From Reyranella humidisoli (GTDB lineage Bacteria; Pseudomonadota; Alphaproteobacteria; Reyranellales; Reyranellaceae): DNA of 64,000 nucleotides. The translations under genes and the position numbers were made by a program. Location of the stretch: assembly GCF_019039055.1 (NCBI RefSeq), contig NZ_JAHOPB010000001.1, positions 806,001 to 870,000 of the forward strand, written 5' to 3'. Below, one piece after another: positions 10,752-34,920 of the stretch (position 1 is its first letter; the number at the start of each line of letters is the position of its first letter). A model generated the notes under the pieces. The model had not been told where the DNA came from and ran no database searches. It worked only from the letters and a program-made list of their open reading frames with translations.

Positions 10752-10760
10752 GAGGCGGCC

Positions 10761-10916
10761 ATGACCCTGCAATCGCTGGGTGAGTTCCTGGGCTCGCTGT
10801 GGACCGTATGGGCGCTGATCGTCTTCGCCGGCATCGCCTTCTGGGCCTGGCGGCCGCGCAACAAGAAGCGCTTCGAGAAGGATGCGCAGATTCCCCTCAA
10901 AGACGACGACCGCTGA
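10761..10916 (+). CDS. ccoQ: cbb3 oxidase subunit CcoQ (FixQ)
   Basis: The 51-aa protein begins MTLQSLGEFLGSLWTVWAL, has one transmembrane helix and ends in a basic then acidic tail (RPRNKKRFEKD). Size, topology and position between ccoO and ccoP identify it as CcoQ, which stabilises the CcoP association. GGAGG lies 5 bp before ATG 10761. It is too short for routine gene calling. Confidence 0.92.
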   Translation: MTLQSLGEFLGSLWTVWALIVFAGIAFWAWRPRNKKRFEKDAQIPLKDDDR

Positions 10917-10926
10917 AGGACCCGTC

Positions 10927-11787: not shown

Positions 11788-11809
11788 GCGCGATGCGGGC
11801 AGGCGTACC

Positions 11810-13279: not shown

Positions 13280-13290
13280 GGAGACACGCC

Positions 13291-16139: not shown

Positions 16140-16285
16140 TGGACAGCCTGCTGGTCCTCGTGCCGGTCGCCCTGCTTCTGGGACTCATCGCGCTCGCCGC
16201 CTTTCTGTGGGCGCTCCGCAACGGCCAGTACGATGACCCCGACGGGGCCGCCGGCCGCATCCTGTTCGACGACGACGACAAATAG
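16139..16285 (+). CDS. ccoS: Oxidase maturation protein CcoS
   Basis: The 48-aa protein has one transmembrane helix and the family ending WALRNGQYDDPDGAAGRILF followed by an acidic tail. ATG 16139 overlaps the ccoI stop. CcoS is needed for cofactor insertion into CcoN in related bacteria. Confidence 0.93.
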   Translation: MDSLLVLVPVALLLGLIALAAFLWALRNGQYDDPDGAAGRILFDDDDK

Positions 16286-16297
16286 AGGAGAAACGAC

Positions 16298-16498
16298 ATG
16301 TCTCACTGGATCATGGGAATCTTCGCCGGCCTGCTCGGCCTCGTGGGCCTGCTGATGGCGGGCGCCGCGCGCGACTTCGGCATCCTGGCCTTCGGCCTGT
16401 CGCTCAGCCTGTTCGGCGTCCTGTTCTGCTGGTGGATGATCAAGACCGCCTTCGACGAGGCGGAACGCGGCACCGACACCGCGCGGGAACAGCCGTAG
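16298..16498 (+). CDS. 66-aa two-span membrane protein at the end of the cco cluster
   Basis: The small protein has two hydrophobic helices (about 5-22 and 28-48) joined by a short loop and a charged C-terminus (TAFDEAERGTDTAREQP). It starts 12 bp after ccoS with AGGAG at ideal spacing, so it is cotranscribed with the maturation genes. I do not recognise a named family. A palindrome after its stop probably ends the operon. Confidence 0.7.
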   Translation: MSHWIMGIFAGLLGLVGLLMAGAARDFGILAFGLSLSLFGVLFCWWMIKTAFDEAERGTDTAREQP

Positions 16499-16511
16499 GG
16501 CTTACCGACCG

Positions 16512-16539
16512 CGTGCCAGCCGTCTAGTTGGCTGGCACG
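16512..16539. terminator. Perfect 10-bp stem-loop between convergent genes
   Basis: CGTGCCAGCC and GGCTGGCACG form a perfect 10-bp stem with an 8-nt loop. There is no clear U-tract. It ends the cco side and overlaps the last codons and stop of the convergent lipoprotein gene, whose TAG lies in the loop. Confidence 0.5.
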
Positions 16540-17618
16540 GTGACGACCGGCGGCGCCGACCGCACGCCGACATCGGATATCGAGAAGAGAAGCATCACGC
16601 TCCCGAAGATCAGCTTCGACCGGATGTCGGTCTCGGCGATCCAGAACCAGCGCCCCTTGTAGGGTACGGCCACGTAGGAATCGGACGGCGCCGACGGCCC
16701 GCTCAGGACGTTGATGAGCGGCGGAGTCGTGCCCTCCGAGGCGTGCGCCATGGTGGCCCCGGGCATGGCGCGCCCGCTCGAGACGTCGGCTTCGGGCACC
16801 TGTGTCAGGATTCCGAGTTCGAGCATCACCTGGAGCATCGAACGCGTCACCAGCGCGATTTCGTCCGACTTGCCGGAATAGCCGCCGTACCGCACCGAGT
16901 AATCGCCGGCAGGGCGTGAAAGGTGGAGAATACTGCGGACTTCGGCAATCTGCGAAGCCACATTGGCCGGGCTGCCCCCAGCCGGAGGGAAGCCGATCAG
17001 CGTGTTCTCGCCATCTTTCTTGCGGTTGATCCGGATCTGCAGTGCGTTGGCCTGCTGCAGCTCGTACAGGAGCTGGGTGAGCCGCAGGAATCGTGGATCC
17101 GCTGGCCGGGACATCCCCGGCCGCCGCGATTCGTTGGCGATACCGTTGATGGACTCCACGGTGAGCGGCATCACGACGGTCGCATTGTATCCCGCCTGCA
17201 GCAGGAACAGCACCGCGCTTGGCGGCATCGGCTCCATCAGCTTGCGGACGAAGTCCGTCCCGGTGAGTGGGGCATAGATTATGGTCGGCCGGTCGATGAA
17301 AGTCGCACCGACGGCCGCCGTACCGCCAACAGCGGGCGGCACCACGCCCGTCGCGGCGCTGGTGTAGTTGGCAATTCCGAACCCTGCTCCGCCAGTTGTC
17401 TGGAACTGGTAGCCCGCGATGACCTGGCCGATCTCCATGAACATCGGATAGTCGCCGTAACGCAACCGCACGATGTTGAGCAGCGTCTGCTACTTCCAGG
17501 AATCCCCGATCGCGGCGGCATAGTCGGCGCGGTCGCGAGGCACGGTTCCCGGCCCGATGCTGCTGCAGCCGCACAGTGCCGCCGCGGCCAGCACGACCAG
17601 CGAGCCGCACGGGCGCAT
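16524..17618 (-). pseudogene. Conserved lipoprotein gene interrupted by an in-frame amber codon
   Basis: ATG at 17616-17618 starts a lipoprotein signal (LAAAALCGCSS, lipobox cysteine near residue 16-18). The frame continues VPRDRADYAAAIGDSWK and then meets TAG at 17490-17492 (codon 43). It resumes with QTLLNIVRLRYGDYPMF and runs another 321 codons to 16526 with no further break. The sequence on both sides reads as one continuous family of alphaproteobacterial outer-membrane-type lipoproteins of unknown function, in which SW-x-QxLLNIVxLRY is contiguous. So the gene is broken by a single point mutation, read through by a suppressor, or the base is an error. A downstream GTG (17471) could give a signal-less product. 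It follows the DUF1622 gene by 2 bp. Confidence 0.75.
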
Positions 17619-17620
17619 GG

Positions 17621-17968
17621 TCACTGCCTGTCTTTTTGCCAGGGCCAACGCCCGCTGACCTCGAGCTCCAGCGCGAACCCAAGCAGGGTGCGGATGGCGA
17701 TGATCACCGCCAGGACACCAAGATTATAAAGGGTGGGCTCTATCGCCACGGTTCCGATGATGTCGGCGATGACGAGAAATTCCAGGCCAAGCAGAATCGC
17801 CCGCCCGAGGTCGGTGCGCAGACCGTGATAGGCGTCCTCCGGGCTGGCCCCCCGGCGAATGCGGATCAGGCAGGCGCCGATGGCCAGGAACGCACCCGCC
17901 AACAGGACGAGGACCCCAATCAGTTCCACGATATGGCCGGCGGTCGAAGCCAGCAGGTCGATTGTCAT
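17621..17968 (-). CDS. DUF1622 inner-membrane protein
   Basis: The 115-aa protein has three hydrophobic segments: IVELIGVLVLLAGAFLAIGA, AILLGLEFLVIADIIGTV and LYNLGVLAVIIAIRTLLGFA. The LxGLEFLxIADII pattern is characteristic of DUF1622. ATG 17968 starts 8 bp after the DUF2252-like stop and the gene ends just before the lipoprotein ATG, so all three form one operon. Its function is unknown. Confidence 0.8.
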   Translation of the reverse strand: MTIDLLASTAGHIVELIGVLVLLAGAFLAIGACLIRIRRGASPEDAYHGLRTDLGRAILLGLEFLVIADIIGTVAIEPTLYNLGVLAVIIAIRTLLGFALELEVSGRWPWQKDRQ

Positions 17969-17975
17969 GGGACGC

Positions 17976-18566
17976 TCAGCTCGTCTCGACGACGGCTTTG
18001 ACCCTGCCCTGGCGCACTGCCCTGACGAAGGCGCGGTGGTCGCGCTGCGCCTGGTCCGCATACGCCACGGCAAAGTCACACATCGCGTCGTCGAAAACCT
18101 CGCTCGAGCCCAGGTATCCCGCAATCTTGGCAGGATCGCCGGAGCGGGCATGGGCGCGCGCCAATGCCCAGCCGCAGACACGGCTATAGGCGCGCAGATC
18201 GCTGGCATCGAAATCCTCGATGATGGCACTGGTCTTCATGTCGCGAAGCTGGCGCACGTAGAAATGCCGCTTGCTCAAGCCGGTACCCCATCCCAGAAAC
18301 AGGTCGCTCGCCGACTGCATCAGCCTCTGCCCGGCCACCACCCGCTGGCCGTGGTTGGCGTGGGCACTCGCACCTGCATAGGGCTCTAGAACCGAGGCCT
18401 TGGCCTCCTTGATCTGCAGGAAGAGAGGATCCTCCTTGCGGGGCTTCCCTTCACGCTGTGAAGCGCGCGGAACGGCCTCCCGCAGCGCCTTTCCCTCGGC
18501 GCGACGCTCGTCAGCCGCCTTGTACGGCACGGATGCGATCATGTGACCATGTGCGGTTGCGTCCAT
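17976..18566 (-). CDS. DUF2252 family protein lacking its central region
   Basis: The product is 196 aa, while DUF2252 proteins are usually over 400 aa. The first 40 residues match the family's opening (RRAEGKALREAVPRAS), and the frame then joins directly to the family's C-terminal part: FLQIKEAKASVL, RVVAGQRLMQSASDLFLGW, HFYVRQLRDMK and LARAHARSGDPAKIAGYLG. The kinase-like central section that normally lies between (roughly 200 residues) is absent, without a frameshift. The ATG at 18566 has a strong GGGGGAG site and an FNR box 49 bp upstream, so the short form still looks expressed. It may be a remnant or a reduced functional variant. Confidence 0.7.
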   Translation of the reverse strand: MDATAHGHMIASVPYKAADERRAEGKALREAVPRASQREGKPRKEDPLFLQIKEAKASVLEPYAGASAHANHGQRVVAGQRLMQSASDLFLGWGTGLSKRHFYVRQLRDMKTSAIIEDFDASDLRAYSRVCGWALARAHARSGDPAKIAGYLGSSEVFDDAMCDFAVAYADQAQRDHRAFVRAVRQGRVKAVVETS

Positions 18567-18614
18567 GCGTCTCCCCCAGCTTACCCGACGATACGCGCGC
18601 CGCCGGATCAAGCC

Positions 18615-18628
18615 TTGAGATGGATCAA
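18615..18628. promoter_or_regulatory. FNR/FixK box of the DUF2252-DUF1622 operon
   Basis: TTGAGATGGATCAA has both half-sites. A class II arrangement on the minus strand would start transcription near 18580, 14 nt ahead of ATG 18566 and just at the ribosome site. Confidence 0.68.
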
Positions 18629-18668
18629 TCGCCGATGGAGGCCACGCACTCCGTTCACCTTGATGCCG

Positions 18669-18800
18669 TCAGCGAACCATGGCGCGGATCGAACGGCGTC
18701 TGTCCAGATCTCGCAGCGCTTCGTCGAAGACGTCCGCCACGAGATCCTGGCCGTACCGCAGGGTATCGAGGCCGAGCGGGATACCGACGCAGCTTGACCT
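18669..18800 (-). other. Possible gene remnant
   Basis: In this 252-bp intergenic stretch one minus-strand frame reads LDTLRYGQDLVADVFDEALR then LDRRRSIRAMVR before TGA at 18669-18671. It looks coding in composition but has an upstream TAG near 18800 and no credible start codon. It may be the tail of a lost gene or a start on a rare codon. No family is assigned. Confidence 0.25.
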
Positions 18801-18818
18801 GCGCCAATGTTCGCCGAC

Positions 18819-20111
18819 CTAACCGTCCGACCTGCCGGAGGATCCTCCAAGGCCTTGCAGATCGCCCTTGTTCGCGCGCCGACGATCTTCAGGTTCCGGG
18901 AAGGAGCGCTCGACGGTTTGCTCCAGCAGGGCGAGCTCGCTCTGCAGCGAGGGTGCGCGCGATGGCGGCAACCGTTCGACAAGATGCTCGAGCATGGCTC
19001 GCAGACGGCGAACGACCTGGGTGCTGGAAGCGCCGTACTGCCGCACTTCGGTGACGGCCAGGCTGACGATGTTGTCCCAGTCGGGCGTCGGGAAAACGAG
19101 TCTCAGCGTGTTGCCGGCATCGTGAACCCTCGCATTGTCGAGATTCTTCTGTCCGGCGTATCGCAGCAGCCGGTGGATCTGATCGATGGCCAGCACGGCC
19201 GTCGTCGGATCGTTGACCGCGGGTGAAAGGGCGCGAGACGCCACGTCGACCATGATGCGGAAGGCGAACATCGGATCCTGACGCATCGTGCGCTCCGGGC
19301 CGAAGGCGACCAGCGCATTGAGTGCTTCCTCGCTCAAACGCGCATCGGCGGGATAGAGGCGGGCCAACGGGTCTCCGGTCGAAACGAAATCTCCTATCTG
19401 CGGGATGATCTCGATCGTGCAGCCGGCCCTCGTCGCAAGTGCCATGAGCTCGCGCCCGCCAAAGGCCAGAAAGGTCCCCGACGGACCGATCCGTTCGACG
19501 ATGCGGCCGGGGCGCCCCACAAGTTCCTGGGCCATCCCCTGGCTTTCCGCCCGCGCAGGATCGAAAGCCCCCTGGTAGACGCTGTCCATGGCATCCTTGC
19601 CGTCCGCGAACACCTTCTGCAGCACCGTGACCGGCCGCAGGCCGAGCCCGACTTCCTCGACGAACCAGAAGAAGACGGCGATGGCCAGGATGTTCCCGGC
19701 GATGGCGAGAAGGATCAGCACGCCGTGACGCACCTGTTCGGTCGTGTTGGCCAGGGCAACCATGGTGATGCCAAAGGCGAAGACGAAGATGCTGGCCGCA
19801 ACCTTCATCTCCCAGCGGCTGAACGTCATCCTGATGATGCGCGGCGTAATCTGGCCGCTGGCGAGCTGGACGGCCAGCAGCAGCGCCGAAACCGCGTAGA
19901 CCATGAATGTCAGCATCGAGGAGGCGAAGGCGGCCATGGAGACGCGCATGCCCTCGACATCGCCATCGTCGAAGCGTGGCCAGCTCGGATCGGGAACGAG
20001 CCCCAGGACGAGCTTTCCTGCCAGCCATGCGACCAGCAGCGCGAGGGAGGGGAACAGCCAGAACGAAGATCTCGCGAACTCGCCCAGGCGGTAGCGGAAA
20101 AGCCAGCTCAT
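18819..20111 (-). CDS. DUF2254 membrane protein
   Basis: The 430-aa protein has four N-terminal transmembrane helices (to about residue 150) and a long soluble C-terminal domain. Typical DUF2254 signatures are visible: AFASSMLTFMVYAVSALLLA, ASGQITPRI, and RTMRQDPMFAFRIMVDVA followed by ALSPAVNDPTTA. Its ATG overlaps the stop of the BASS-family gene (ATGA), so the two are coupled. The function is unknown; channel-like roles have been suggested only by topology. Expression probably follows the FNR box at 21018. Confidence 0.85.
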   Translation of the reverse strand: MSWLFRYRLGEFARSSFWLFPSLALLVAWLAGKLVLGLVPDPSWPRFDDGDVEGMRVSMAAFASSMLTFMVYAVSALLLAVQLASGQITPRIIRMTFSRWEMKVAASIFVFAFGITMVALANTTEQVRHGVLILLAIAGNILAIAVFFWFVEEVGLGLRPVTVLQKVFADGKDAMDSVYQGAFDPARAESQGMAQELVGRPGRIVERIGPSGTFLAFGGRELMALATRAGCTIEIIPQIGDFVSTGDPLARLYPADARLSEEALNALVAFGPERTMRQDPMFAFRIMVDVASRALSPAVNDPTTAVLAIDQIHRLLRYAGQKNLDNARVHDAGNTLRLVFPTPDWDNIVSLAVTEVRQYGASSTQVVRRLRAMLEHLVERLPPSRAPSLQSELALLEQTVERSFPEPEDRRRANKGDLQGLGGSSGRSDG

Positions 20112-20983
20112 GATGGTGCCTTCGACGAGACTTCGGCCGGGACCTTGCCCAGCCAGCCTGAAGCGAGCCAGGTCGCTGCGAGGGTCAGCGGGACACCGAG
20201 CGCAACCATGACCGTGGTTCGGGGATCGGGATCGGCCACGAGCAGCGGCGCGAGGGCGGCGCCGAGATTGCGCGTGCAGGCGCCGAGGCAGACGACGCTG
20301 CGCCGTGCAGGCGGCAGGCGGATCGCAAGCAGATACCCGCCGGCAATGAGACCGATCGCATAGAGAAGCTGCCCGGCAATGGCAAAGCTACCGATCGCGC
20401 CGAAGAAGCCCTGGCCGTGGCGAATGGCGATCGCCAGCAGCAGGACGACCGTCGCCGCACCGGCAATCGGCCGAACGACGGCGAGCAGTTTCTGTGCGAT
20501 CGGCCGGTGAACGGCACGCAGGGCCATGCCGGCGCCCATCGGAAGAATGAGCAGAACCAGCAGGGGACGCGCGACCGTCCAGGCTTCGACGGAGAGCCCC
20601 GGCACGACGACGGGGACGCCGAGCGGCATCATCAGGACGGTACCGAGCGCCGCGACGAGCATGAATGCCGCGGTATAGGAAAGGTCGCCCCCAGCGCGCC
20701 GGACCATCATCGGCAGGAAAGGCGCCGCCGGCGCCAGGGAAACCAGCAGCAGGCCGACCGCATAGGGCTCGGCCATCGGCACGACACGCACGATCGCAAA
20801 CGCAAGCGCGGGCGCGAACAGCCAGTCGACGACCATGACGATCAGGAGGAAGCGCAGATCCCGCAGCGGTGCGAGCGCTGCCCGGCCATCCGTCTCCAGG
20901 CCGATCGCCAGGAGGTTGCCGGCCATAAACAGGATCACTGCCGGCCGAATGGCGATCTCCGCGAGGTGCAGAATGCCTTCCAT
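20108..20983 (-). CDS. BASS (bile acid:sodium symporter-like) family transporter
   Basis: The 291-aa protein has nine to ten transmembrane helices with the BASS layout: RPAVILFMAGNLLAIGLE at the start, LVSLAPAAPFLP in the middle and the late CLGACTRNLGAALAP motif, which corresponds to the cross-over helix region. Substrates of bacterial members are mostly unknown organic anions or arsenite. The start at ATG 20981-20983 gives the best N-terminus but has no clear ribosome site. The FNR box upstream is centred exactly 41.5 bp from the A of this ATG. Confidence 0.7.
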   Translation of the reverse strand: MEGILHLAEIAIRPAVILFMAGNLLAIGLETDGRAALAPLRDLRFLLIVMVVDWLFAPALAFAIVRVVPMAEPYAVGLLLVSLAPAAPFLPMMVRRAGGDLSYTAAFMLVAALGTVLMMPLGVPVVVPGLSVEAWTVARPLLVLLILPMGAGMALRAVHRPIAQKLLAVVRPIAGAATVVLLLAIAIRHGQGFFGAIGSFAIAGQLLYAIGLIAGGYLLAIRLPPARRSVVCLGACTRNLGAALAPLLVADPDPRTTVMVALGVPLTLAATWLASGWLGKVPAEVSSKAPS

Positions 20984-21017
20984 TCCGCACCGATAACCCA
21001 CCGGTCCGACGCGGGAC

Positions 21018-21031
21018 TTGATCGTTGTCAA
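21018..21031. promoter_or_regulatory. FNR/FixK box in a divergent promoter
   Basis: TTGATCGTTGTCAA has both half-sites. It lies between the BASS-DUF2254 operon (minus) and the outer-membrane/VIT-like operon (plus). It is centred at 21024.5, which is 41.5 bp from each start codon to within 2 bp. Confidence 0.7.
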
Positions 21032-21063
21032 AGAGTAGGCATTGCAACGGGCTATCCTGCGGC

Positions 21064-22017
21064 ATGCGACGGATCGTTCCGATTCTGGTGGCCGTCCTCC
21101 ATCCCGGCTGGGCCTTGGCCGATGAAGGAGGCGCCAGCGTCTGGCTGCCCGGCCAGTTCGCGAGCTTCGCCGCCGTTCCGGGAGACCCAGGCTTTTCCGT
21201 CGAGTCGATCATCTACACGCGGAACGCGAGCGCACTGGCAGGAACGAGCTTCTCGCGCGGTGGCGGATTGCTCGCCGGCCTTTCCGTGAACGAGCAGTAT
21301 GTCTACCTCACCCCGACCTATACGTTCGCGACGCCTGTCCTGAACGGCCAGATGTCACTCGGTGTGACCTTCTCGGCCGGGCAATCGGGCGCCTCCGTAT
21401 GGGGAGTCCTGGCAGGCCCCGGCGGTCGCTCGCTGTCCACTTCCTCGAGCGACAGCGCATCGGGCATCAGCGATCTCTACCCCATGGGTTCGCTGAAATG
21501 GCAGCTCGGCGACCACAATGCCATGGTCTACGTCATGGGCAGCGTACCGACCGGATCGTACGATCCAAACCGGCTTGCCGGTGTCGGCCTCGGTCACTGG
21601 GCGATCGACTGGGGTCTCGGCTACACCTTTCTCGCCCCGACCGGCTTCGAGTTCTCGGTGACCGCAGGACTCACCTACAATTTCATCAATCCTCAGACGG
21701 GCTATCAAAGCGGCATGGACGCTCACGTCGACCTGGGGGTCTCCTATTCGTTCAGCGAGACGCTCTATGCCGGTGCCGTCGCCTACATCTACAACCAGCT
21801 TTCCCCCGATACTGGCGGATCGGCCCGTCTCGGCGACTTCCGATCGAGTGTCGCGGGCGCAGGACCGCAGATCGGGTGGTCTTTCACCGGCGCCGGCATG
21901 GCCTTCGACGTGAACCTCCGCGGATACAAGGAATTCGCGGCGCACAATCGGCCGGAGGGATGGAATGCCTACCTCACGCTGTCCATCGGCGCGCTGCCGC
22001 GCAAGAAGGCGGATTGA
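21064..22017 (+). CDS. Outer-membrane beta-barrel protein, phenol-degradation MetA-like
   Basis: The 317-aa protein has a short signal peptide (RRIVPILVAVLHPGWALADE, cleavage after ALA). Alternating hydrophobic beta-strands follow, with YVYLTPTYTFATPVL, VYVMGSVPTGSYDPN, WAIDWGLGYTFL and GFEFSVTAGLTYNF. This is the pattern of the PF13557 family found in aromatic-compound gene clusters. Here no aromatic genes are near, so only an outer-membrane channel role is inferred. The VIT-like gene starts 5 bp after its stop. Confidence 0.7.
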   Translation: MRRIVPILVAVLHPGWALADEGGASVWLPGQFASFAAVPGDPGFSVESIIYTRNASALAGTSFSRGGGLLAGLSVNEQYVYLTPTYTFATPVLNGQMSLGVTFSAGQSGASVWGVLAGPGGRSLSTSSSDSASGISDLYPMGSLKWQLGDHNAMVYVMGSVPTGSYDPNRLAGVGLGHWAIDWGLGYTFLAPTGFEFSVTAGLTYNFINPQTGYQSGMDAHVDLGVSYSFSETLYAGAVAYIYNQLSPDTGGSARLGDFRSSVAGAGPQIGWSFTGAGMAFDVNLRGYKEFAAHNRPEGWNAYLTLSIGALPRKKAD

Positions 22018-22022
22018 TCGCG

Positions 22023-22682
22023 ATGCCGAACCTGATCGATCGCTATCTCGACCCCAGCGAAAGCCTGCTCGAAATCCTGTTCGGTCTGGTGATGGCCTTG
22101 ACCATGACCGCCGGCGCACGCCTGCTGTCGGAACCGGCCACGCTCGACCTGTCTGAACTGATGCTCGCCCTGATCGGCTGCAACGTAGCCTGGGGAGTCA
22201 TCGACGCGGTATTCTACCTGATGGGGTCGCTGTTCAACCGCAATCGCCGCGTGAGACTGGTTCGACGACTGCAGGCTGCGACCAGCGACGATCAGGCCAT
22301 CGCGCTCGTTCGCGACGAATTCGACCTTCGAGGTGAGCCGCCTACCCGGCCGGAGGACAGCGCCGCGTTCCATCGGGCCTTGCTCGAATTGCTGCGTCAC
22401 GCCGGCTCCGAGCGTGCTCACTTCACACGGCACGAGTTCATCGCCGCCGGGATCGTCCTCCTGCTGGTGTCGGCAACGGCCATCCCTGGGCTGATCCCGC
22501 TGCTGCTGGTCGGCGATTCCGACACGGCATTGAGACTCGCCAACGCGGTTCAAGTCGTCCTGCTCTTTGCAATCGGCTATCGCTGGGCCCGGTACTCGGG
22601 CGCCCCCGGTTGGCGTGGGGCCCTTATCGTCGGTACCCTCGGCATCGGCCTGGTGCTGGTGGCGGTTGCGCTGGGCGGTTGA
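22023..22682 (+). CDS. VIT1/CCC1-like membrane protein
   Basis: The 219-aa protein has five membrane segments: LLEILFGLVMALTMTAGA at the N-terminus, LALIGCNVAWGVIDAVFY, then a cytosolic helical hairpin rich in charge, and three C-terminal helices including FAIGYRWARYSG. These motifs recall proteins annotated as VIT1/CCC1 transporters (vacuolar-type iron/manganese transporters), though the acidic metal-binding residues of plant VIT1 cannot be confirmed. It is cotranscribed with the outer-membrane protein and is the last gene before the tRNA-derived repeat. Confidence 0.6.
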   Translation: MPNLIDRYLDPSESLLEILFGLVMALTMTAGARLLSEPATLDLSELMLALIGCNVAWGVIDAVFYLMGSLFNRNRRVRLVRRLQAATSDDQAIALVRDEFDLRGEPPTRPEDSAAFHRALLELLRHAGSERAHFTRHEFIAAGIVLLLVSATAIPGLIPLLLVGDSDTALRLANAVQVVLLFAIGYRWARYSGAPGWRGALIVGTLGIGLVLVAVALGG

Positions 22683-22744
22683 TCACGCGGTCGCCGCAGA
22701 GGAGCGGCGGGTACCGCAAGATCGGTACCTGGTTCGCAATGGCT

Positions 22745-22782
22745 GAGGAGAAATGGCGTGCCCGGAAGGAGTCGAACCTCCA
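22745..22782 (-). repeat. 38-bp copy of the tRNA-Arg 3' end (attR-like)
   Basis: These 38 bp match 27910-27947 with one mismatch (T at 22759 against C at 27924). On the minus strand 29 bp are the T-arm, acceptor end and CCA of tRNA-Arg and 9 bp are the sequence just downstream. No 5' half of the tRNA is present here, so it is a fragment, as left by integration into a tRNA 3' end. Confidence 0.8.
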
Positions 22783-22789
22783 AACATTC

Positions 22790-25519
22790 CTAAGTGCTTC
22801 TCCTTGCCTGCAAGGCAGCGAACACGCACTCGGCGAACATTCGGTCGACGTCCGGGGCTTCGAACATTCGCCAATGGTCTCCGGCAACAGGGACCACGTC
22901 GACACGACTGGTACGGTTCGACCACCCCAAATCTTGGGGAACCTCGGGGGGCCGGGGCTCATCCGAGCGAAAAAGGACGACCGGAACGTCGCACCGTACC
23001 GGCCTCAGCCGATTCAGCCACTCGGTGTGGAGGCGGTGAAACAGGCGCAGCAGGATGACGGTCGGCAGGGTCATCCTCCACGACTCCGGCAGGGGCGGGT
23101 CGAGCGCCATCAGCGCCCGTAGCGCCGCACGGATTCCTCGCCTGGTGAAGAGATCGTCCGAGAGGATGGCAGCTGCCAGTGTGACCCAGTAGCCGCGCCG
23201 GAACCCTCGCCGCAGGCGGGCCACCTGGTCCCGCGGACGACGGCGCGGCACCGGCTCCGCCGGATAGATGACGCCGCTCACGTCCGTGTCGAACACGCCC
23301 AACAACACGACTTCGCGGCCTTCGGCGATGAGCTGGGTCATCGTCGCGTACGCAACGTCACCCCCGGCGGAATAGCCGGCGAGAGCGAGAGGACCGTGAG
23401 GCTTTTCGCGGATGATCTGCTCGACGGCGAGCCTGACGATGGTTTCGAACCCGGTGTCGGCCCGAGCCAGCACACCGGCGCCGGGATAGCGCAGCATCCT
23501 CAGAGTAAGGCGCTCGGCAAGGGAGCGGCAGAAGCCGGCGAGCAAGCCATCGGCGCCGCCGGCTGGCGGGAAGAAGAAAATCACGGGTTCGTCCGCCGCA
23601 AGTTCACGCGGCTTCTCCTCGAGGAAGCTCTCGACAGCGCGTGCGATTCCTTCTTCATCCAGCCGGGCGTGGAACCTTTCCAGCGGCAGCGCGCGGCCGG
23701 CCAGCCGTTCGAGATGGAAGATCATCTGCGGGAAAGCGAGCGAGTCCCCGCCGGAATCTTCGAAGGACTGTCCGGAGCGCGGCGCCCGGCCGACCGCTGC
23801 ACGCCAAGCCCGGTTCACCATTGCCCTCGCCCGCGGGCCGGCGGTCGGCGAGGGTGTGGGTGCAGGGACCTCGACGTCCACGGCGGCGCAGGCGAGCAGC
23901 GCTGCTTCGTCGACCTTGCGCCCTGGCAACAATGGCAGGCCGTCCAGGACGTGGACGGCCCGCGGGCGCATGTACGGCGGCAGGGTTCGGGCGAGACTGT
24001 TGCGGATTTCCGCCGGGAATCCCGCCGCCACGGAACCGCGCGGCACCACGAAGGCGAACAGGTGAGGCTCGTCGTCGACCATCCGCGCGACCACCGCGGC
24101 ATCCGCGACGGACGGGTCCCGGCGTAGTGCCGCTTCTATCTCGGCGAGTTCGACACGGTTGCCACGGATCTTGATCTGCCGGTCACGCCGGCCGAGCATG
24201 ACGAAAAGCCCGTCGGACCGGCGCCGAACGAGGTCGCCGGTGCGGTAGGTCTTGAGATGCGGCCGGGAGGAATCGAACTCGAACGGCCCCGGCGCCACGT
24301 CGCCGTCGCACCACAGGCCGAGCGACATGAAGGCGCTGCGCACGACGAGTTCTCCCTCCCCGCCATCGGCCACCGGCTGGCCGTGTTCGTCGATCACACC
24401 GAAGTCGATGTCGGGCAGGGGATAGCCGACCGGCACGCGGGCCTCGTCGTGCGGCGGCTCGGTCACGAACCACTGAAGCAGGGCCGGTGCTTCGGTCGCG
24501 CCGTAGACCGACAGTATCGCGCAGTTCGACGGCAGTACTTTCCGCACCAGCTCGTGGTCGACGCGGAGCAGGACGTCGCCCGAAGTCTGGATGCAGCGCA
24601 GACTGGTCAGCGCCTCGCGCGCACCTTCGAGTTGCATCACGCTGCGCCAGACGGCAGGCGTGGAAAACATCATCGTGATGCGCCGCTCGGCGACCGCCCG
24701 CAACACCTGCCCCAGACCGATGCGCTGCAGGTCGAGTTTCACGAGGGCCGCGCCGCACAGCATGACTTCGAAGATCTGCTGCAGACCACCGATCGTTCCG
24801 GGTGACGCCAGCGACAGAACCTTGTCAGCGGCGTGCAGGTGCACGGCATTCACCAACTCTGCCGCGCGATGCAGGACCGCGCGCTGGCTGAGAATGATTC
24901 CCTTGGGCTGGCCAGTGCTACCGGACGTGTAGACGACGAAGCTCGCGGAGTCGGCCGACGCCGGCACGGCCGGCATGGCAGGCGGAACTTCCGCAGCAGC
25001 GAAGGCATCCTCGATGGCGAACGGACGTACACCTGCCGGCAGCAGATAGCCCGAAGCGATATCGGCGCGGCTCATGATGACGGCCGAAAGGCCGGCATCC
25101 CTTACCACCGCCGCAACCCGCTCCTGAGGATAGTTCCGATCGATCAGGATGCAGGAACGCGATGCGCCGAGGCACGCCAGTACGGCCGCCGGGTACGATG
25201 CCTGATTGGGCAGCAATACGCCCACCGCCCCGCCGGAAGGAATGGCCGTATCGATGAGTCCCGCGAGCCAGCACGCGGCCTTCCACATCTCAGCGAAAGT
25301 GAATCCGCCATCGCCATCCTCGCAGGCAACGGCATCGGGTCGTCGCTCGGCGATCTCGGCGAACAATTCGATCGCCGGACGCTCGACCCAGCTCTCTTCG
25401 AAGCGGCAAAAGGCAACGTCTCGCGGCCCGTTCAGATCGAGATCGGGCACCGGGTGCCGCTGCCATCGGGGACCTGTTGCACTCACATCAGCCGCAGCAG
25501 GCGAAGAGGAGGCTGACAT
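22790..25519 (-). CDS. Stand-alone NRPS-like enzyme, adenylation-thiolation-thioesterase
   Basis: The product is 909 aa. The adenylation domain (about 45-560) shows A3 YTSGSTGQPKG near residue 196, A5 VYGATEAP, A7 YRTGDLV, A8 DRQIKIRGNRVELAEIE and A10 Lys in GRKVDEAAL. A carrier domain has the phosphopantetheine serine in GGDSLAF (about 591). A thioesterase domain has GYSAGG (about 714) and a late His in AGDHWRMF. There is no condensation domain. At A4 the segment TIGGLQQIFEVMLCGA replaces the usual FDxSxxE, so the Asp that binds a substrate amino group is missing. This suggests a keto, hydroxy or aryl acid substrate. The start at ATG 25519 has GGAAG upstream. Confidence 0.85.
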   Translation of the reverse strand: MSASSSPAAADVSATGPRWQRHPVPDLDLNGPRDVAFCRFEESWVERPAIELFAEIAERRPDAVACEDGDGGFTFAEMWKAACWLAGLIDTAIPSGGAVGVLLPNQASYPAAVLACLGASRSCILIDRNYPQERVAAVVRDAGLSAVIMSRADIASGYLLPAGVRPFAIEDAFAAAEVPPAMPAVPASADSASFVVYTSGSTGQPKGIILSQRAVLHRAAELVNAVHLHAADKVLSLASPGTIGGLQQIFEVMLCGAALVKLDLQRIGLGQVLRAVAERRITMMFSTPAVWRSVMQLEGAREALTSLRCIQTSGDVLLRVDHELVRKVLPSNCAILSVYGATEAPALLQWFVTEPPHDEARVPVGYPLPDIDFGVIDEHGQPVADGGEGELVVRSAFMSLGLWCDGDVAPGPFEFDSSRPHLKTYRTGDLVRRRSDGLFVMLGRRDRQIKIRGNRVELAEIEAALRRDPSVADAAVVARMVDDEPHLFAFVVPRGSVAAGFPAEIRNSLARTLPPYMRPRAVHVLDGLPLLPGRKVDEAALLACAAVDVEVPAPTPSPTAGPRARAMVNRAWRAAVGRAPRSGQSFEDSGGDSLAFPQMIFHLERLAGRALPLERFHARLDEEGIARAVESFLEEKPRELAADEPVIFFFPPAGGADGLLAGFCRSLAERLTLRMLRYPGAGVLARADTGFETIVRLAVEQIIREKPHGPLALAGYSAGGDVAYATMTQLIAEGREVVLLGVFDTDVSGVIYPAEPVPRRRPRDQVARLRRGFRRGYWVTLAAAILSDDLFTRRGIRAALRALMALDPPLPESWRMTLPTVILLRLFHRLHTEWLNRLRPVRCDVPVVLFRSDEPRPPEVPQDLGWSNRTSRVDVVPVAGDHWRMFEAPDVDRMFAECVFAALQARRST

Positions 25520-25565
25520 AACCACTTTCTTCCGTTTCGCGGTTGGAAGCCACCCGAGCACATGC

Positions 25566-25601
25566 TGCCAGCATAATTGTTCTGCAGAACGCTGGCATCA
25601 A
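25566..25601 (-). promoter_or_regulatory. Promoter and dyad operator of the NRPS-like gene
   Basis: On the minus strand TTGATG (25596-25601) and AATTAT (25573-25578) form a -35/-10 pair with 17-bp spacing. The spacer contains the perfect palindrome GTTCTGCAGAAC (25579-25590), nested within a second inverted repeat TGCCAGC/GCTGGCA (25566-25572 and 25591-25597). The arrangement suits a repressor site controlling one or both divergent genes. Confidence 0.5.
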
Positions 25602-25696
25602 CGTCGTTATGAGTGAGCAGAACGTGCCGCCAGCGCTGGAATACGCCGAGCGGGCCTGTATCTTCGGCGCCTCTCCCTGGGCTATTGAAGCACCCG

Positions 25697-27079
25697 ATGA
25701 CAGGCTCCGACCTCGGCCGACTCTTCACGCCACGCTCGATCGCGGTTCTTGGTGCTTCGGCCAGCCCCGACAAGCTGGGAGGCCAGGTGTTCGGGCGTCT
25801 CGCCTCTTCGTTCAAGGGTGACCTGATCGCCGTCAATCCGTCGGAGACCGCCATCGCCGGCCGGCCAGCCGTGCCGTCGCTACGCGACCTGCCATCGCCG
25901 GTCGATCTCGTCGTCGCGCTGCTTCCGGGTGAAGCGCTGGTCGAGGCGATCGAGCACTGCCCGCAAGGACAGGCGGCGTTTCTGCTGGCCATTCCCAGCG
26001 GCTTCGGCGAGGTCGCGCACGAAGGTCCCGCGCTTCAACGGCGCCTGGCCGAGGCCGCGCACCGAGCCGGCATGCGTGTCGTGGGCCCCAACTGCGTCGG
26101 CGTGCTGAACATGGACGCCGGCCTGAATGCCTCGATCATTCCGCTGATGCCACCGGGTGGGCGTCCAGGCCTCGGCATCGCCACCCAGAGCGGCGGCTTC
26201 GGCATGGCGACGGCCATGTATGCCTGCGACAACGGGCTGGCGATCTCCTCTTTCTGCGACGTCGGCAACACGGTCGACGTCTCATTGGCCGATTGCGTGG
26301 ACCACCTCGCAGCCGATCCCGCGACCGGCGTGATCGGCCTGTATGTCGAATCGGTGCGCGATACCGCCGGGTTCCAGCGTGCAGTCGAGCAGGCGGCCCG
26401 CCGCAAGCCCGTCATCCTCTGTCCACTCGCGCGCTCTCCGGCAGGCCAGGCAGCTTCGCTCGCTCATGTGGGCATCGCGGCCGATGGGGTCTTGCTGGTG
26501 CAAGCGGCACGCGCCGCCATTACGGTCGATTCGGGTCTCGATCTGCTGCACGTCGCCAAGATGCTGCTGTGGCAGGCTCCACGCACGCTGCACGGCCGTC
26601 GGCTTGCCGTCGTCACCGGGACGGGCGGGATCGGCACCGAGATCGCCGACCTCGCGAGCGAGCGAGGCCTCGCGGTGCATCGCTTCTCCGATCGCCTGAC
26701 CAAGGCGATCGCCAACCATTTGCCGCCCTATGCCGCATCGGGCAATCCGGTCGACCTGACGCCGGTATGGCGCGACTATCCGGAACTCTATCCGCTGGTC
26801 ATCGAGGAGATTGCCCGTTCGGGCGAGGCCGATCTCATCGCCGTCTCCATCACCGACGTTCCAACCACCCGGCCTGACCTCGCAAGAAGCCTCGCTCGGA
26901 CGATTCCCCGGCTCGGCGTTCCCACGGCGGTCTACTGGGCGTCGCGCGATTCCGACGTCGCAAACATGGCGCCGCTGCAGGCGGCGCGGGTGCCATGCTA
27001 TCGGGCCACGCGAGAACTCGCGCTGGCGCTCGCCGCGCTGGCGCGCTCCGACACAAGCTGCACCGAGGGCCCCGAGTGA
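25697..27079 (+). CDS. NDP-forming acyl-CoA synthetase, alpha-type (CoA-binding) protein
   Basis: The 460-aa protein has a CoA-binding Rossmann domain (RSIAVLGASASPDKLGGQV, to about 130). Two succinyl-CoA-ligase-like domains follow, with VVGPNCVGVLN, ATQSGGFG and the AASLAHVG segment that carries the phospho-histidine region. The ATP-grasp (beta) domain needed for a complete ADP-forming acyl-CoA synthetase is absent and no separate beta gene is adjacent. It may partner with a beta subunit elsewhere or have another acyl-transfer role. ATG 25697 is preferred because the conserved domain begins soon after. It is divergent from the NRPS-like gene. Confidence 0.75.
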   Translation: MTGSDLGRLFTPRSIAVLGASASPDKLGGQVFGRLASSFKGDLIAVNPSETAIAGRPAVPSLRDLPSPVDLVVALLPGEALVEAIEHCPQGQAAFLLAIPSGFGEVAHEGPALQRRLAEAAHRAGMRVVGPNCVGVLNMDAGLNASIIPLMPPGGRPGLGIATQSGGFGMATAMYACDNGLAISSFCDVGNTVDVSLADCVDHLAADPATGVIGLYVESVRDTAGFQRAVEQAARRKPVILCPLARSPAGQAASLAHVGIAADGVLLVQAARAAITVDSGLDLLHVAKMLLWQAPRTLHGRRLAVVTGTGGIGTEIADLASERGLAVHRFSDRLTKAIANHLPPYAASGNPVDLTPVWRDYPELYPLVIEEIARSGEADLIAVSITDVPTTRPDLARSLARTIPRLGVPTAVYWASRDSDVANMAPLQAARVPCYRATRELALALAALARSDTSCTEGPE

Positions 27080-27122
27080 CATGTCCGTCAGCATCGCCGA
27101 ATGACAGATCATCGACCTCGCT

Positions 27123-27809
27123 TCAGGCAGTCGCCCGACGCCGAAACAGGGGGGCCGTGTTGCCCGTGCGGTGCAGGCAGAGCGCCTTCCCGCTCGCGCG
27201 CGGCTGGAAGTAGACGACGCGCCCGGTTTCCCGCCATCCGAGTGCGCGCAATCCCTTGAGGGCATCAGGCCGATCGAACTGCCCTATCGTGAAGGCATGG
27301 CGCGCGCCTTGGGCGCGCGCATCTCTCAGCATTGTCCCCAGCACCAGCGCATGTATGCCCTGGCCGCGAAAGGCCGCCGGGGTAAAGGCATCGGTCGTAT
27401 AGACCTCGCCTGAGCCCAGCCGAAGCGGTCGGCCGGGCAGCGCATCGCCCCACCGGTAGCAGGTCCAGTTCACGTGGGCGAGATGGTCGCCGACAAACGC
27501 CAGATAGCAGCGCTCGCCCCGCAAGAGGCGATCACGATAAAGCTGTTCTGCAGCCGTGTCTCCCGGATGGGAACCCAGCCACAGCCAGGGATCATCGGCG
27601 TAGAGGCGGCAGATCGCGCCGAGGTCCTCCTCCTTCGCGAGGCGGATCATGGCGTCGAGCCGATTGGGTACGACGGTCACTGGCTCGACGAGGGATCGTT
27701 CGAAGAACAGGACGCAGCACAGATCGCCGAGGGGTGCGATGGCTCTGCGAGCGAACTGCCAAACGCGCGTAAGGGTGCCGTGTTGTTGGGCCGCTCCCGG
27801 CCTGGTCAC
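27123..27809 (-). CDS. GNAT family N-acetyltransferase
   Basis: About 228 aa. The GNAT domain begins at MIRLAKEEDLGAICRLY and has the acetyl-CoA loop AFRGQGIHALVLGTML. A 55-residue N-terminal extension (FFERSLVEPVTV) is usual for a subgroup of bacterial GNATs. No ATG gives the full domain; GTG 27809 with AGGGAC upstream is chosen, while TTG 27860 is also open. It is convergent with the acyl-CoA synthetase-like gene and lies inside the tRNA-bounded segment. The substrate is unknown. Confidence 0.65.
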   Translation of the reverse strand: MTRPGAAQQHGTLTRVWQFARRAIAPLGDLCCVLFFERSLVEPVTVVPNRLDAMIRLAKEEDLGAICRLYADDPWLWLGSHPGDTAAEQLYRDRLLRGERCYLAFVGDHLAHVNWTCYRWGDALPGRPLRLGSGEVYTTDAFTPAAFRGQGIHALVLGTMLRDARAQGARHAFTIGQFDRPDALKGLRALGWRETGRVVYFQPRASGKALCLHRTGNTAPLFRRRATA

Positions 27810-27918
27810 CGTTCGGGTCCCTGTGAGGGGACTTGGCTGCACGCCGACAACGGAGGCCAAGGGGAAGCCAAAGTGGCCCTTGGAGCCTCATCAACATACG
27901 CATGTGAACGAGGAGAAA

Positions 27919-27995
27919 TGGCGCGCCCGGAAGGAGTCGAACCTCCAGCCTTCTGATTCGTAGTCAGATGCTCTATCCAGTTGAGCTACGGGCGC
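27919..27995 (-). tRNA. tRNA-Arg (anticodon ACG)
   Basis: The 77-nt gene has a complete cloverleaf: acceptor GCGCCCG paired with CGGGCGC, D-arm AGCTCAACTGGATAGAGC, anticodon stem CTGAC with loop TACGAAT giving ACG, and T-loop GGTTCGACTCC. CCA is encoded at 27919-27921. Its 3' end is duplicated at 22745-22782. Confidence 0.95.
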
Positions 27996-28324
27996 ACGGC
28001 CAAGCCCCGAGGGGCCTAGCGAAGAGGGGCGCACCCTAATGAAAGTGGTCCGGCGTTGCAAGCCGAGTAGGACGGGTTTTGGGGCTGCGACGCGGCGCCC
28101 CATGTCGGCGGATTCGGGACCCCAAACGGCCCGGGGCGCGGACGCGGACGCCCGCCAAGTCGTTCTGCCGCCTTTGGAAACCGCTCTTGTCGGTTTTGCT
28201 TGCTTTAAGTTAGCATGACTGCCATCTGGATTTAGGGGCACGTGCTCCGGCTCGGCACGGCCTGTAGCCGGGCGCCGGATCGGAGCACCTGATCGATGGT
28301 ACCGGGGCAGGTTCGAGGCCGAAG
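27996..28324. other. Intergenic region with tRNA promoter and an inverted repeat
   Basis: No gene is seen in these 329 bp. On the minus strand TTGCAA (28056-28061) and TAGGGT (28033-28038) with a 17-bp gap are a reasonable tRNA-Arg promoter. Nearer the lipoprotein gene, GTGCTCCG (28242-28249) and CGGAGCAC (28281-28288) form an 8-bp inverted repeat with a 31-nt loop, possibly a leader structure. Confidence 0.4.
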
Positions 28325-29068
28325 ATGGCGCTAAGTTTTCAACGGTCTGCGCTTGTCCTGGCGATGATCGTTCTGGCCGGCTGCGACCAGGCCAACGTCT
28401 TTGCGCCGGCCGGCAGCCCACCGCCGTCGAATTCCAATCCCGCCATCACCCAGACCGGCACGCTGACGGTTCGCAAGAGCATCGAACAGCTGCGCAGCGA
28501 CCAGGCCGCGCTCAGCAACGGCATCGCCGCGCAGCAGGCCCAGTTCAACGCTACGCGCGGACAGCTGGCCGGCGACGCGCGCAGCTATGCGGGGCTGGTG
28601 AGCGGCATCAATTCGCGCCTGCAGGCCGGCACGACGCCGGGCAACCCCGATCTGGTGAACCAGTGGAATGCCGCGCAGGGCAAGCTCGACGCGGTGACGA
28701 TCGGCGTGGGTTCGCTGAACTCGCTGGCCAGCCAGGTGACCACCCAGGCGTCGGTGGCGGGCTATCTGCTCGAGAACGTGCGCGCGACCTATCGGATCGG
28801 CGGCGCGGTCGACGCAGACCATCGCAACCTGCGCGCCATCGAGGCCGAGACCCGGCGCTCGATGCAGCAGATCGACCGGCTGATCGTGGACCTCAACGCC
28901 GAGATCGGCCGCGAGAATACCTTCCTGGGCCGCGAGCGCAGCAACCTCGCCGCCCTGTCCTACAACGTGAACGTCGGCCGGCTCGGCGCGCCCCCCGGCG
29001 CGGGAGCAGGCGGGCAGCCCGGTACCGTTACGCCGCAACCGACCCGGCGTCCCGTCCCCCTTCAGTAA
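28325..29068 (+). CDS. Coiled-coil lipoprotein of unknown function
   Basis: The 247-aa protein has a lipoprotein signal with lipobox VLAGC (Cys at residue 20). A long alpha-helical region follows with heptad-like leucines (KSIEQLRSDQAAL, RSMQQIDRLIVDLNAEIG), and the tail is proline/glycine-rich (PPGAGAGGQPG). It is probably anchored to the inner or outer membrane facing the periplasm. No named domain is recognised. The next gene starts 80 bp downstream on the same strand. Confidence 0.7.
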   Translation: MALSFQRSALVLAMIVLAGCDQANVFAPAGSPPPSNSNPAITQTGTLTVRKSIEQLRSDQAALSNGIAAQQAQFNATRGQLAGDARSYAGLVSGINSRLQAGTTPGNPDLVNQWNAAQGKLDAVTIGVGSLNSLASQVTTQASVAGYLLENVRATYRIGGAVDADHRNLRAIEAETRRSMQQIDRLIVDLNAEIGRENTFLGRERSNLAALSYNVNVGRLGAPPGAGAGGQPGTVTPQPTRRPVPLQ

Positions 29069-29148
29069 CCAGCCGCTCGCCCGCGTTCAGGGCTGATCTG
29101 CCTCGCCGACAGTCGCGCATCCGGGGTCCGGGGCGTACAGTCGCGTGC

Positions 29149-29571
29149 ATGGCTCTTCGCTTCCTCCTGATCCTCGGCATGACCCTCGGCCTGGCGCTGC
29201 CGGCCGCAGCTCAGGTCTCGCCTGCCGACCAGACCGCGATCCGCGGCGTGATCGAGGGCCAGGTCGAAGCCTTCCGCCGCGACGACGGCGAGGCCGCCTT
29301 CGGCTATGCCTCGCCCAACATCCGCAGCCTGTTCGGCACGCCCGAGACCTTCATGGACGTCGTGCGCCAGGGGTATCGCCCGGTGTACCGGCCGCAGGTC
29401 TTCGAGTTCCGCGAAATCGTCACGCTGCACGGGATGCCGACGCAGAAGGTGCATGTGGTCGGGCCCGACGGGCGGCCGGTCACCGCCTTCTATCCGATGA
29501 CGCAGCAACCCGACGGAAGCTGGCGCATCGAAGGCTGCTACCTCCAGGCGCCTGAAGAACACCAGGCCTGA
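29149..29571 (+). CDS. DUF4864-like exported protein
   Basis: The 140-aa protein has a signal peptide (ALRFLLILGMTLGLALPAAA, cleavage before QVS). The rest fits DUF4864: ADQTAIRGVIEGQVEAFRRD, then AFGYASPNIRSLFG and ending WRIEGCYLQAP. The fold is NTF2/SnoaL-like in related families; its role is unknown. ATG 29149 is chosen because it starts the signal peptide. Confidence 0.75.
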   Translation: MALRFLLILGMTLGLALPAAAQVSPADQTAIRGVIEGQVEAFRRDDGEAAFGYASPNIRSLFGTPETFMDVVRQGYRPVYRPQVFEFREIVTLHGMPTQKVHVVGPDGRPVTAFYPMTQQPDGSWRIEGCYLQAPEEHQA

Positions 29572-29587
29572 TCGCTCCCATCCGCCG

Positions 29588-30469
29588 ATGTCCCGCGTTT
29601 CGCCCAAGGTGCTGGCTCTGCTCGGCGCGCTCACCCTCGTCTGGGGGACCAACTGGCCGCTGTTCCGGATCGCGCTCGACGAGTTGCCGGTCTTCACTTT
29701 CCGCACCCTGGTCCTGTCGTCCGCGGTGATCATGCTGACCACGATCCTGCTGGTGCGCCGCGAGAGCTTCGCCGTGCCGAAGGGCAAGTGGCCCGCGCTG
29801 ATCCTCGCCTCCGCCATGAACATCGGCATCTGGAACATCGCGACGTCGCTGGCCGTGCTCTACATCCCCTCCGGCCATGCCTCGGTGCTGGCCTACACGA
29901 TGCCGCTGTGGGTCGCGGTGCTGGGCTTCGTCGTGTTCGGCCAGAAGCTCACCGGACGATTGCTCGCGGCCATCGCGATCGGCGCGGGCGCCGTCGCGGC
30001 GCTGATGATCCCCAACTTCCAGAGCTACGCGTCCGCGCCGCTCGGCCTGTTTTGGGGCCTGCTGGCGGGCTTCTGCTGGGCCGTCGGCACCTTCGTCGTG
30101 AAGCGCACGAACTGGTCCGGCATGGGTCTCTCGCTCACCTTCTGGCAGGTCCTGATCACGCTGCCGCCGATCGCTCTGGGGGCGCTGGTCTTCGACGGGC
30201 TGCCGACGCACTGGCCCTCGGCGCAGGCGCTTGCCGCCACGATCTACACCGGAGCGATCCCGATGGCGCTCGGCACCGCGACCTGGTTCACCCTGGTCAA
30301 GCTGTTGCCGGCGCAGGTGGCGGCCCTCTCCTCGATCGCGATTCCCATCGTGGCGATCGTGAGTGGAATCCTGATGCTGAACGAACCGCTGTCGACATTG
30401 CAGGCCGTGGCCATCGGCTCCACGGTGATCGCGCTCTGGCTCGCTCTGGTGCCGGGCCGACAGCGATAG
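29588..30469 (+). CDS. EamA-type DMT superfamily transporter
   Basis: The 293-aa inner-membrane protein has ten predicted helices in two EamA repeats. Repeat one opens LVWGTNWPLFRIALDELP and the second LLAGFCWAVGTFVVKR. A late NEPLSTLQAVAIGSTVIALW motif matches RhtA/YdcZ-like exporters. It probably exports amino acids or other metabolites. It starts 17 bp after the DUF4864 gene. Confidence 0.85.
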   Translation: MSRVSPKVLALLGALTLVWGTNWPLFRIALDELPVFTFRTLVLSSAVIMLTTILLVRRESFAVPKGKWPALILASAMNIGIWNIATSLAVLYIPSGHASVLAYTMPLWVAVLGFVVFGQKLTGRLLAAIAIGAGAVAALMIPNFQSYASAPLGLFWGLLAGFCWAVGTFVVKRTNWSGMGLSLTFWQVLITLPPIALGALVFDGLPTHWPSAQALAATIYTGAIPMALGTATWFTLVKLLPAQVAALSSIAIPIVAIVSGILMLNEPLSTLQAVAIGSTVIALWLALVPGRQR

Positions 30470-30536
30470 CCGACAGCGGTAGTTGTCGCCGACCGAGGCA
30501 ATTCCCACATTGGAGTGGGTATTGGAGGCCCGGGTC

Positions 30537-30955
30537 ATGGCAAAAGGCGATCCACGAGACTGGATGTGGGCCGAAGCGCTGCAGATGCTGGCGCAGGCGG
30601 AACGCATGCACCATCAGGTCTTCCGGCCGCAGACGGCCGGCCGGCTGCGGCCCAGCTGGGAACCGCCTGTCGACGTGCTCGAGACCGAACGCGAGGTGCT
30701 GATCCTCGCCGCGCTGCCCGGCGTCGACGTCCAGACAGTCGAGGCCGTGATCGAGAACGGCGCGCTCGTCCTGTCGGGCGAGCGCACGGTTCCGGCCGAG
30801 CTGCGGACCGCCAAGATCCATCGCATGGAGCTGCCGCAGGGCCGCTTCGAGCGCCGCATCGAGCTGCCGCCCGGCCATTACGGCGAAGTGCGCCGCTTCG
30901 AGGTGAACGGTTGCCTCGCGGTGACGCTCGCCAAGGCGGTCGTGCGGAGGCAGCC

Positions 30956-30959
<4 letters not shown>
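30537..30959 (+). CDS. Hsp20/alpha-crystallin small heat shock protein
   Basis: The 140-aa protein has an alpha-crystallin domain from about residue 40 (PPVDVLETEREVLILAALPGV, shortened here to its pattern) ending in NGCLAVTLAKA. GRFERRIELPPG is the typical beta-strand pair. ATG 30537 follows TTGGAGG by 8 bp. Its stop overlaps the lon ATG (ATGA), so a holdase chaperone and a protease are made together. The N-terminal region is short and tryptophan-containing. Confidence 0.85.
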
Positions 30960-33361
<2,402 letters not shown>

Positions 33362-33374
33362 ACCTCTTCATGTT

Positions 33375-33464
33375 CCTCTCCCCCGTTAGGGGGAGAGGCT
33401 AGGTGAGGGGGTTACAGAGGTGCGTCGCCCCCTCACCCAACCTCTCCCCCTGACGGGGGAGAGG
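33375..33464. repeat. Palindromic intergenic repeat after lon
   Basis: CCTCTCCCCC and GGGGGAGAGG units form two hairpins (33375-33398 and 33441-33464), with GGTGAGGGGG and CCCCCTCACC pairing between them. The whole element folds on itself. It may terminate lon and the convergent amidohydrolase transcript. Similar high-copy C/T-rich palindromes are common in alphaproteobacterial genomes. Confidence 0.7.
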
Positions 33465-33471
33465 AGTATGA

Positions 33472-34920
<1,449 letters not shown>

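Follow-up and report, generated by a model that had tools for sequence, protein, structure and literature searches.

Cis-mobilizable elements (CIMEs) are described as elements that have lost their integration and transfer genes, keep the attachment (att) sites attL and attR, and can become stacked (PMC5704250). The tRNA islands sought by Islander are defined by a tRNA gene together with its displaced fragment, and an integrase is required (PMC4383910). We consider here a 5.2-kb, three-gene unit at a tRNA-Arg(ACG) gene of Reyranella humidisoli, in a 64,000-nucleotide stretch (the window, whose first letter is position 1) that covers positions 806,001 to 870,000 of contig NZ_JAHOPB010000001.1, assembly GCF_019039055.1. 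This genome (5.5 Mb, 6 contigs) is labelled G000, and other genomes and loci are given G and L numbers where they must be told apart. A first-pass annotation made from the window's letters had proposed that directly repeated tRNA 3' ends bound the unit and that it lacks an integrase. We conclude that it is probably an integrase-less, att-flanked, CIME-like cargo unit, next to accessory DNA of older date, at a tRNA-Arg gene that serves as a hotspot in Reyranella; its integrase gene was most likely lost. The features concerned are the following.

22745-22782, forward strand: distal repeat copy, the displaced tRNA-Arg 3' fragment plus 9 nt, differing from the intact copy at one base (T for C)
22783-27909: the unit between the repeats, 5127 bp, absent by alignment from the related loci L067 and L084
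22790-25561, reverse strand: nonribosomal peptide synthetase (NRPS)-like enzyme, in which adenylation and thioesterase domains were found and a carrier domain scored below threshold (E 0.22)
25613-27079, forward strand: NDP-forming acyl-CoA synthetase alpha-like protein (CoA_binding_2, Succ_CoA_lig and partial Ligase_CoA_2 domains)
27123-27860, reverse strand: GNAT-like protein (Pfam E 0.05; PDB 2g3a acetyltransferase, E 6e-4)
27910-27947, forward strand: proximal repeat copy, containing the 3' end of the intact tRNA-Arg gene (repeat search, mismatch scan and L067 alignment)
27919-27995, reverse strand: intact tRNA-Arg(ACG), called by ARAGORN

Direct repeats of the tRNA-Arg 3' end

A repeat search of positions 18000-34000 found the copies at 22745-22782 and 27910-27947 as the sole 38-nt direct pair in that region, 37/38 identical (97%) and 5165 bp apart from start to start. 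Each copy holds 29 nt of the tRNA 3' end, including CCA, and 9 nt downstream. When the whole window was scanned on both strands, just these two copies were found at up to 12 mismatches in 38, and the best chance match in 50 Markov-1 simulated windows (one strand) had 12-16 mismatches; the annotated repeat is thus confirmed and lies beyond chance in these simulations. Its orientation is that expected for integration into a tRNA 3' end, as had been claimed. The tRNA itself is 77/77 identical in the closest relatives (for example L036, L037, L038 and L067), and the shared 9 bases past it recur at the same tRNA in close relatives. The 30-nt core of the repeat has no exact match in IMG/VR.

Empty sites in relatives

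Related loci were gathered by way of the EamA gene on the right-hand side; 80 were kept from named genomes, of which 67 (L067-L133) were examined, the last 13 being left out for their beta- or gammaproteobacterial titles. A tRNA matching the window's tRNA-Arg is present in 56 of the 67. The closest relative found, L067 (JAKFVZ010000082.1, Reyranella sp. D4_Bin_3), has the sequence of window 21560-22782 at 96.2% running directly into an intact tRNA-Arg(ACG), so that the left flank of the distal copy is the downstream flank of the intact tRNA there. Aligned with the window from which 22745-27909 had been removed, L067 is identical in 2109 of 2196 columns with 5 gap columns, and no gap falls among the 180 columns around the junction. 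Similarity continues rightward to window position 36512 at 92.9%, and leftward, on a second contig taken as the same genome (L203; 126-bp overlap), to position 10026 at 94-97%; L203 holds two extra stretches relative to the window. The more distant L084 is a second empty site, joined in the same way at about 81%. The empty site that the first-pass annotation had predicted, with the DNA left of 22745 joined to the tRNA, therefore exists in L067 at 96% and in L084 at about 81%.

These alignments show a precise insertion, or a precise excision in the relatives, at the tRNA 3' end. The simplest reading is that 5165 bp would have been gained by precise recombination at this tRNA end, loss in the relatives being less likely. 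The same tRNA offers a second, independent filled and empty pair: a genome with a 2.4-kb unit and a degenerate repeat (G008) and another (G017) are identical in 590 of 631 columns on the left side up to the repeat.

Cargo genes and their homologues elsewhere

The NRPS-like gene has candidate starts from 25561 to 25450, and its stop codon lies 7 bp from the distal repeat. The true start of the GNAT-like gene is uncertain (27860-27680), and its 245-aa form matches relatives only from residue 27-42. Domain searches found only these three described genes, with no ATP-grasp domain among the unit's proteins and no conjugation genes in the unit. The NRPS-like and synthetase alpha-like assignments of the first reading stand, while its GNAT is seen at weak significance only.

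The trio occurs compactly, in the same order and relative orientation, at other loci in G006 (L049) and G015 (L050), the NRPS gene of G015 being longer (1446 aa). Among 65 genus genomes, homologues of one or more cargo genes were found in G015, G006, G463, G466, G471, G474, G476, G477, G481, G488 and G018; ABC-transporter ATPase genes adjoin the synthetase in G477, G463 and G474. None of the 12 stretches fetched around cargo homologues holds a tRNA-Arg. In the sister species G015 the cargo proteins are 48-74% identical to ours (59% for one NRPS segment), whereas 19 other locus genes common to the window and G015 are 86-100% identical, which argues that the cargo genes are not vertical orthologues. 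Vertical synteny of the three genes was likewise rejected because, of the 65 genus genomes, only G000 has cargo and flank within one match (E ≤ 1e-20), and because the cargo-homologue stretches lack tRNA-Arg. Neither such synteny without a repeat copy nor another tRNA duplication behind the 22745 fragment, which had been named at the outset as evidence that would speak against an insertion, was seen in the 65 genus genomes or in the 12 stretches.

In a wider search of 385 genomes of the class, three others match the acyl-CoA synthetase at E ≤ 1e-60, with 33-35% identity; 103 plasmid records match at E ≤ 1e-30, all below 60% identity, the six matches listed being at 33-36%. The trio of G006 lies between the copies of a 23-nt repeat (8457 and 14038, 96%), which are outside the trio's ends, the first of them inside a gene; no empty site for this pair was found in the 65 genomes among the matches listed. 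Around the trio of G015, none of the five of seven repeat families listed is a flanking pair.

The tRNA-Arg gene as a hotspot

The upstream side of this tRNA is recognisable in all 18 loci compared, and its downstream side varies by genome. Displaced tRNA 3' fragments (≤6 mismatches in 30) occur in six of the 56 loci (L071, L076, which is G008, L084, L090, L094 and L099, which is G004); all six are downstream in the expected orientation, and none was found in the three other placements. Flanks in these 56 loci are unequal, with at least 2 kb downstream in 50 and at least 5 kb in 43; several are the same records as in an earlier set, and a few lie outside the genus by title or identity. That earlier set had the tRNA in 21 of 22 loci and fragments at the 30-nt level in three of the 21 (G008, G004 and G020). 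Altogether seven other genomes carry a displaced tRNA-Arg 3' fragment with other contents at the site, and in an eighth (G021) the arrangement is split over contigs. The largest content we describe is that of G020 (L047:2495-18097), 15.5 kb between tRNA-Arg repeats with LodA-like oxidase, flavoprotein, peptidase and TPP-enzyme genes and no integrase in eight scanned proteins or in a profile scan; the G008 unit encodes helix-turn-helix (HTH) and IrrE-type proteins. The fragments in L071, L076 and L084 have the same inner flank (160-172 matches over 201-202 columns; the other pairs compared give 92-109 over 217-234), which looks as though one element end had served in all three.

The DNA left of the unit is also accessory, and comprises the following.

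16500-22744: older block with a 315-aa protein, DUF1622, a DUF2252 fragment, DUF2254, SBF, MetA-like and VIT genes, of atypical codon usage
21088-22017: Phenol_MetA_deg-like gene, left neighbour (domain search)
22023-22682: VIT1-domain gene, left neighbour (domain search)

The left neighbour had been given as a single 'vniVIT-like' gene; the VIT1-domain gene is indeed there, together with the Phenol_MetA_deg-like gene, and the limits of both come from a simple coding-score script. The block at 16500-22744 is absent at the tRNA in G015, so that the difference between the window and G015 spans 16500-27909 and not just the part from 22745; the gene run at 8642-16498 directly adjoins the tRNA there. 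That run we take, from gene sizes and order, to resemble a cytochrome cbb3 oxidase operon (the metal ATPase alone having been tested). In 16524-27680, each of the nine genes that encode 180 aa or more has codon usage outside the range of the 26 genes right of the tRNA. In L084 the homologues of window 17634-22744 have a tRNA fragment (-4324) on one side and the tRNA on the other, so the block at 17.6-22.7 kb may once have been such a tRNA-bounded unit itself; the mismatch scan found no left-hand tRNA repeat at its left edge in the window. The unit thus adjoins an older block, and the tRNA is used repeatedly in the genus; a Reyranella hotspot is the best reading of tRNA-Arg(ACG).

Two further observations concern the surrounding DNA. 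The DUF2252 gene at 17976-18542 appears truncated (188 aa, against 457 aa predicted in L203), and L203 has about 0.8 kb more at window position 18433. To the right of the tRNA, a strong inverted repeat lies at 33368-33471, with 44-nt arms that are 89% complementary.

Integrases at this tRNA and in the genome

The annotated absence of an integrase from the unit held in domain, profile and tblastn searches alike: its proteins contain no integrase domains, the unit has no match to a model built from 21 integrase relatives, and 87 tblastn queries gave no convincing match (pieces of at most 146 aa, E 0.006 or worse). None of the 11 Phage_integrase matches in G000 (E ≤ 1) is at this locus, and the integrase stretches fetched from G000 carry one tRNA-SeC call, one tRNA-Thr call and no tRNA-Arg. 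Nor does G000 match, at E ≤ 1e-10 or 1e-6, the integrase families found at this tRNA in relatives.

Integrase genes or remnants do occur at or near the site in five genomes. L090 has an integrase piece with an Arm-DNA-bind_3 domain (118 aa) inside a 0.87-kb unit. In G021 a stop-interrupted integrase adjoins a tRNA-Arg fragment, the intact tRNA being absent from that contig. In L075 (6661-8217) and L097 (8032-9108) the intact tRNA has a divergent integrase beside it; the two integrases share 61% identity, end about 130 bp from the tRNA and match a PHROG integrase (E 4.5e-10 and 3.7e-12). The N-terminal part falls in a separate match in the genome of L097, and that gene may be broken. In G024, small integrase remnants lie some 9 kb away from the tRNA. 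The tyrosine integrases with Arm-DNA-bind_3 domains are presumably P4-type.

The divergent tyrosine integrase family of L075 and L097 is missed or barely seen by Pfam and found by PHROGs. It has no match in phage records at E ≤ 1e-5, and seven genomes (L218, L222, L223, L224, L226, L227 and L230) have pieces or genes of this family next to tRNA-Leu(CAA).

Origin of the unit

On the most likely account, a three-gene, 5.2-kb unit entered at the tRNA-Arg(ACG) 3' end through site-specific recombination, which kept the tRNA intact and left the displaced 38-bp copy at the far end, as the empty site shows. Given the kind of site, and given that relatives have integrase genes and remnants there, we infer that a tyrosine integrase was most likely responsible, one whose element takes this tRNA for its attachment site. 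The integrase gene was most likely lost before or soon after arrival, and what is left would be two att sites around cargo, mobile only if a matching integrase enters the cell. Recurrence of the 9 bases past the tRNA in close relatives suggests a donor within the same Reyranella subclade. Between the alternatives first offered for the missing integrase, we lean toward a remnant rather than a unit moved by an integrase encoded elsewhere, since relatives have integrase remnants at the site and G000 has no match.

Several points weigh against this account. Gain over loss rests on parsimony, and the genome taken as that of L067 is 75% complete. No integrase is seen together with the trio, so the recombinase is inferred, and no decayed integrase is left in the unit, whose close packing (the NRPS stop is 7 bp from the repeat) means that an integrase deletion leaves no trace. 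L116 has an integrase-arm piece (2064-2438) on the side of the tRNA opposite the hotspot. Unequal flanks mean that fragments further out were missed, as that of G020 was in the larger set, and at the 20-nt level there are one opposite-strand match in L044 and two matches in L043, one of which resembles another tRNA. Codon usage gives weak support: the 26 comparison genes also define the reference, one of 13 left-flank genes (1427-2107) is outside the range too, and the trio's coding scores are low in G006 and G015 as well.

The strongest competitor, which we hold to be clearly less probable, is that the unit, a minimal att-flanked cassette, never had its own integrase and was inserted in trans by that of another element with the same target tRNA. 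It would account for the tight packing of a unit in which no integrase trace is seen and which a relative of 96% identity lacks; of seven further units between repeats at this tRNA (0.9-15.5 kb), the profile scan of 82 loci gave an integrase match for L090's only, and integrases beside this tRNA exist in the genus. But those integrases find no match in G000 at the thresholds applied and its 11 Phage_integrase matches are not at the locus, relatives show integrase decay in place, and the trio elsewhere is not seen with tRNA-Arg copies. An extension of this idea, in which tRNA-Arg(ACG) would be a standing cargo dock where recombinase-less att-flanked cassettes are exchanged within the subclade by the in-trans integrases of unrelated passing elements, is speculative and rather unlikely; so, to the same degree, is the idea that the metabolic trio, the LodA-like and peptidase genes, the XRE-IrrE pair and others are such cassettes.

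Import of the entire filled locus, through homologous recombination with DNA of a relative already carrying the unit at this tRNA, is improbable. The 38-bp core and right flank are typical of close relatives and flank identity to L067 is unequal (96% left, 93% right), as import might produce, but no donor locus was found in the 65 genus genomes, and import would only shift the integration event to the donor. That the repeat is a chance or duplicated tRNA fragment beside vertically inherited genes is extremely improbable: nothing speaks for it beyond the generality that tRNA fragments may be duplicated in other ways, the exact empty site in L067 refutes it, a chance repeat was rejected by scan and simulations (two copies only at ≤12 mismatches; simulations never closer than 12), and the other genus genomes searched lack the unit here.

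Comparison with known systems

The finding is real but of a rather ordinary sort, a relic of mobile DNA at a position that holds other cargo in relatives. It provides a clean natural filled and empty pair, at single-base resolution, for integrase-less DNA of a sort that island finders demanding an integrase, such as Islander, would discard. With several repeat-bounded, integrase-poor units at one tRNA, it can be asked how often units move without their own recombinase, and L075 has an uninterrupted candidate integrase reading frame. No work on this locus was found among the literature matches listed for CIMEs, integrase-less islands and Reyranella mobile elements, and the genus is unmentioned among the matches listed for islands with Reyranella.

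In the Islander description, an island has an intact tRNA and a displaced 3' fragment on the correct side, in the correct orientation and at a length of 2-200 kb; our unit has all of these, but it has no integrase gene and would fail Islander's integrase filter (PMC4383910). It works like a tRNA island at integration, yet it is not classed as an Islander-type island because no integrase gene lies within it. It differs also from elements with Arm-DNA-bind_3 integrases: L090 and G021 have pieces of such integrases at this tRNA or its fragment, and the window's unit has none.

The likeness to CIMEs is closer. Both att sites are kept (37/38 repeats plus the empty site), and integration and conjugation genes are absent. 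No parent element with this trio was found in the 385 class or 65 genus genomes, and integrase decay was seen in relatives only. The unit differs from the CIMEs of the cited account in being only 5.2 kb, and its descent from an integrative and conjugative or integrative and mobilizable element (ICE/IME), like its mobilisation in cis after accretion with an ICE/IME, is putative here; it resembles them in being att-flanked without integration and transfer genes, and its place next to further accessory DNA at a single tRNA is like accretion (PMC5704250). Judged by its sequence, the unit fits the anatomy of a CIME.

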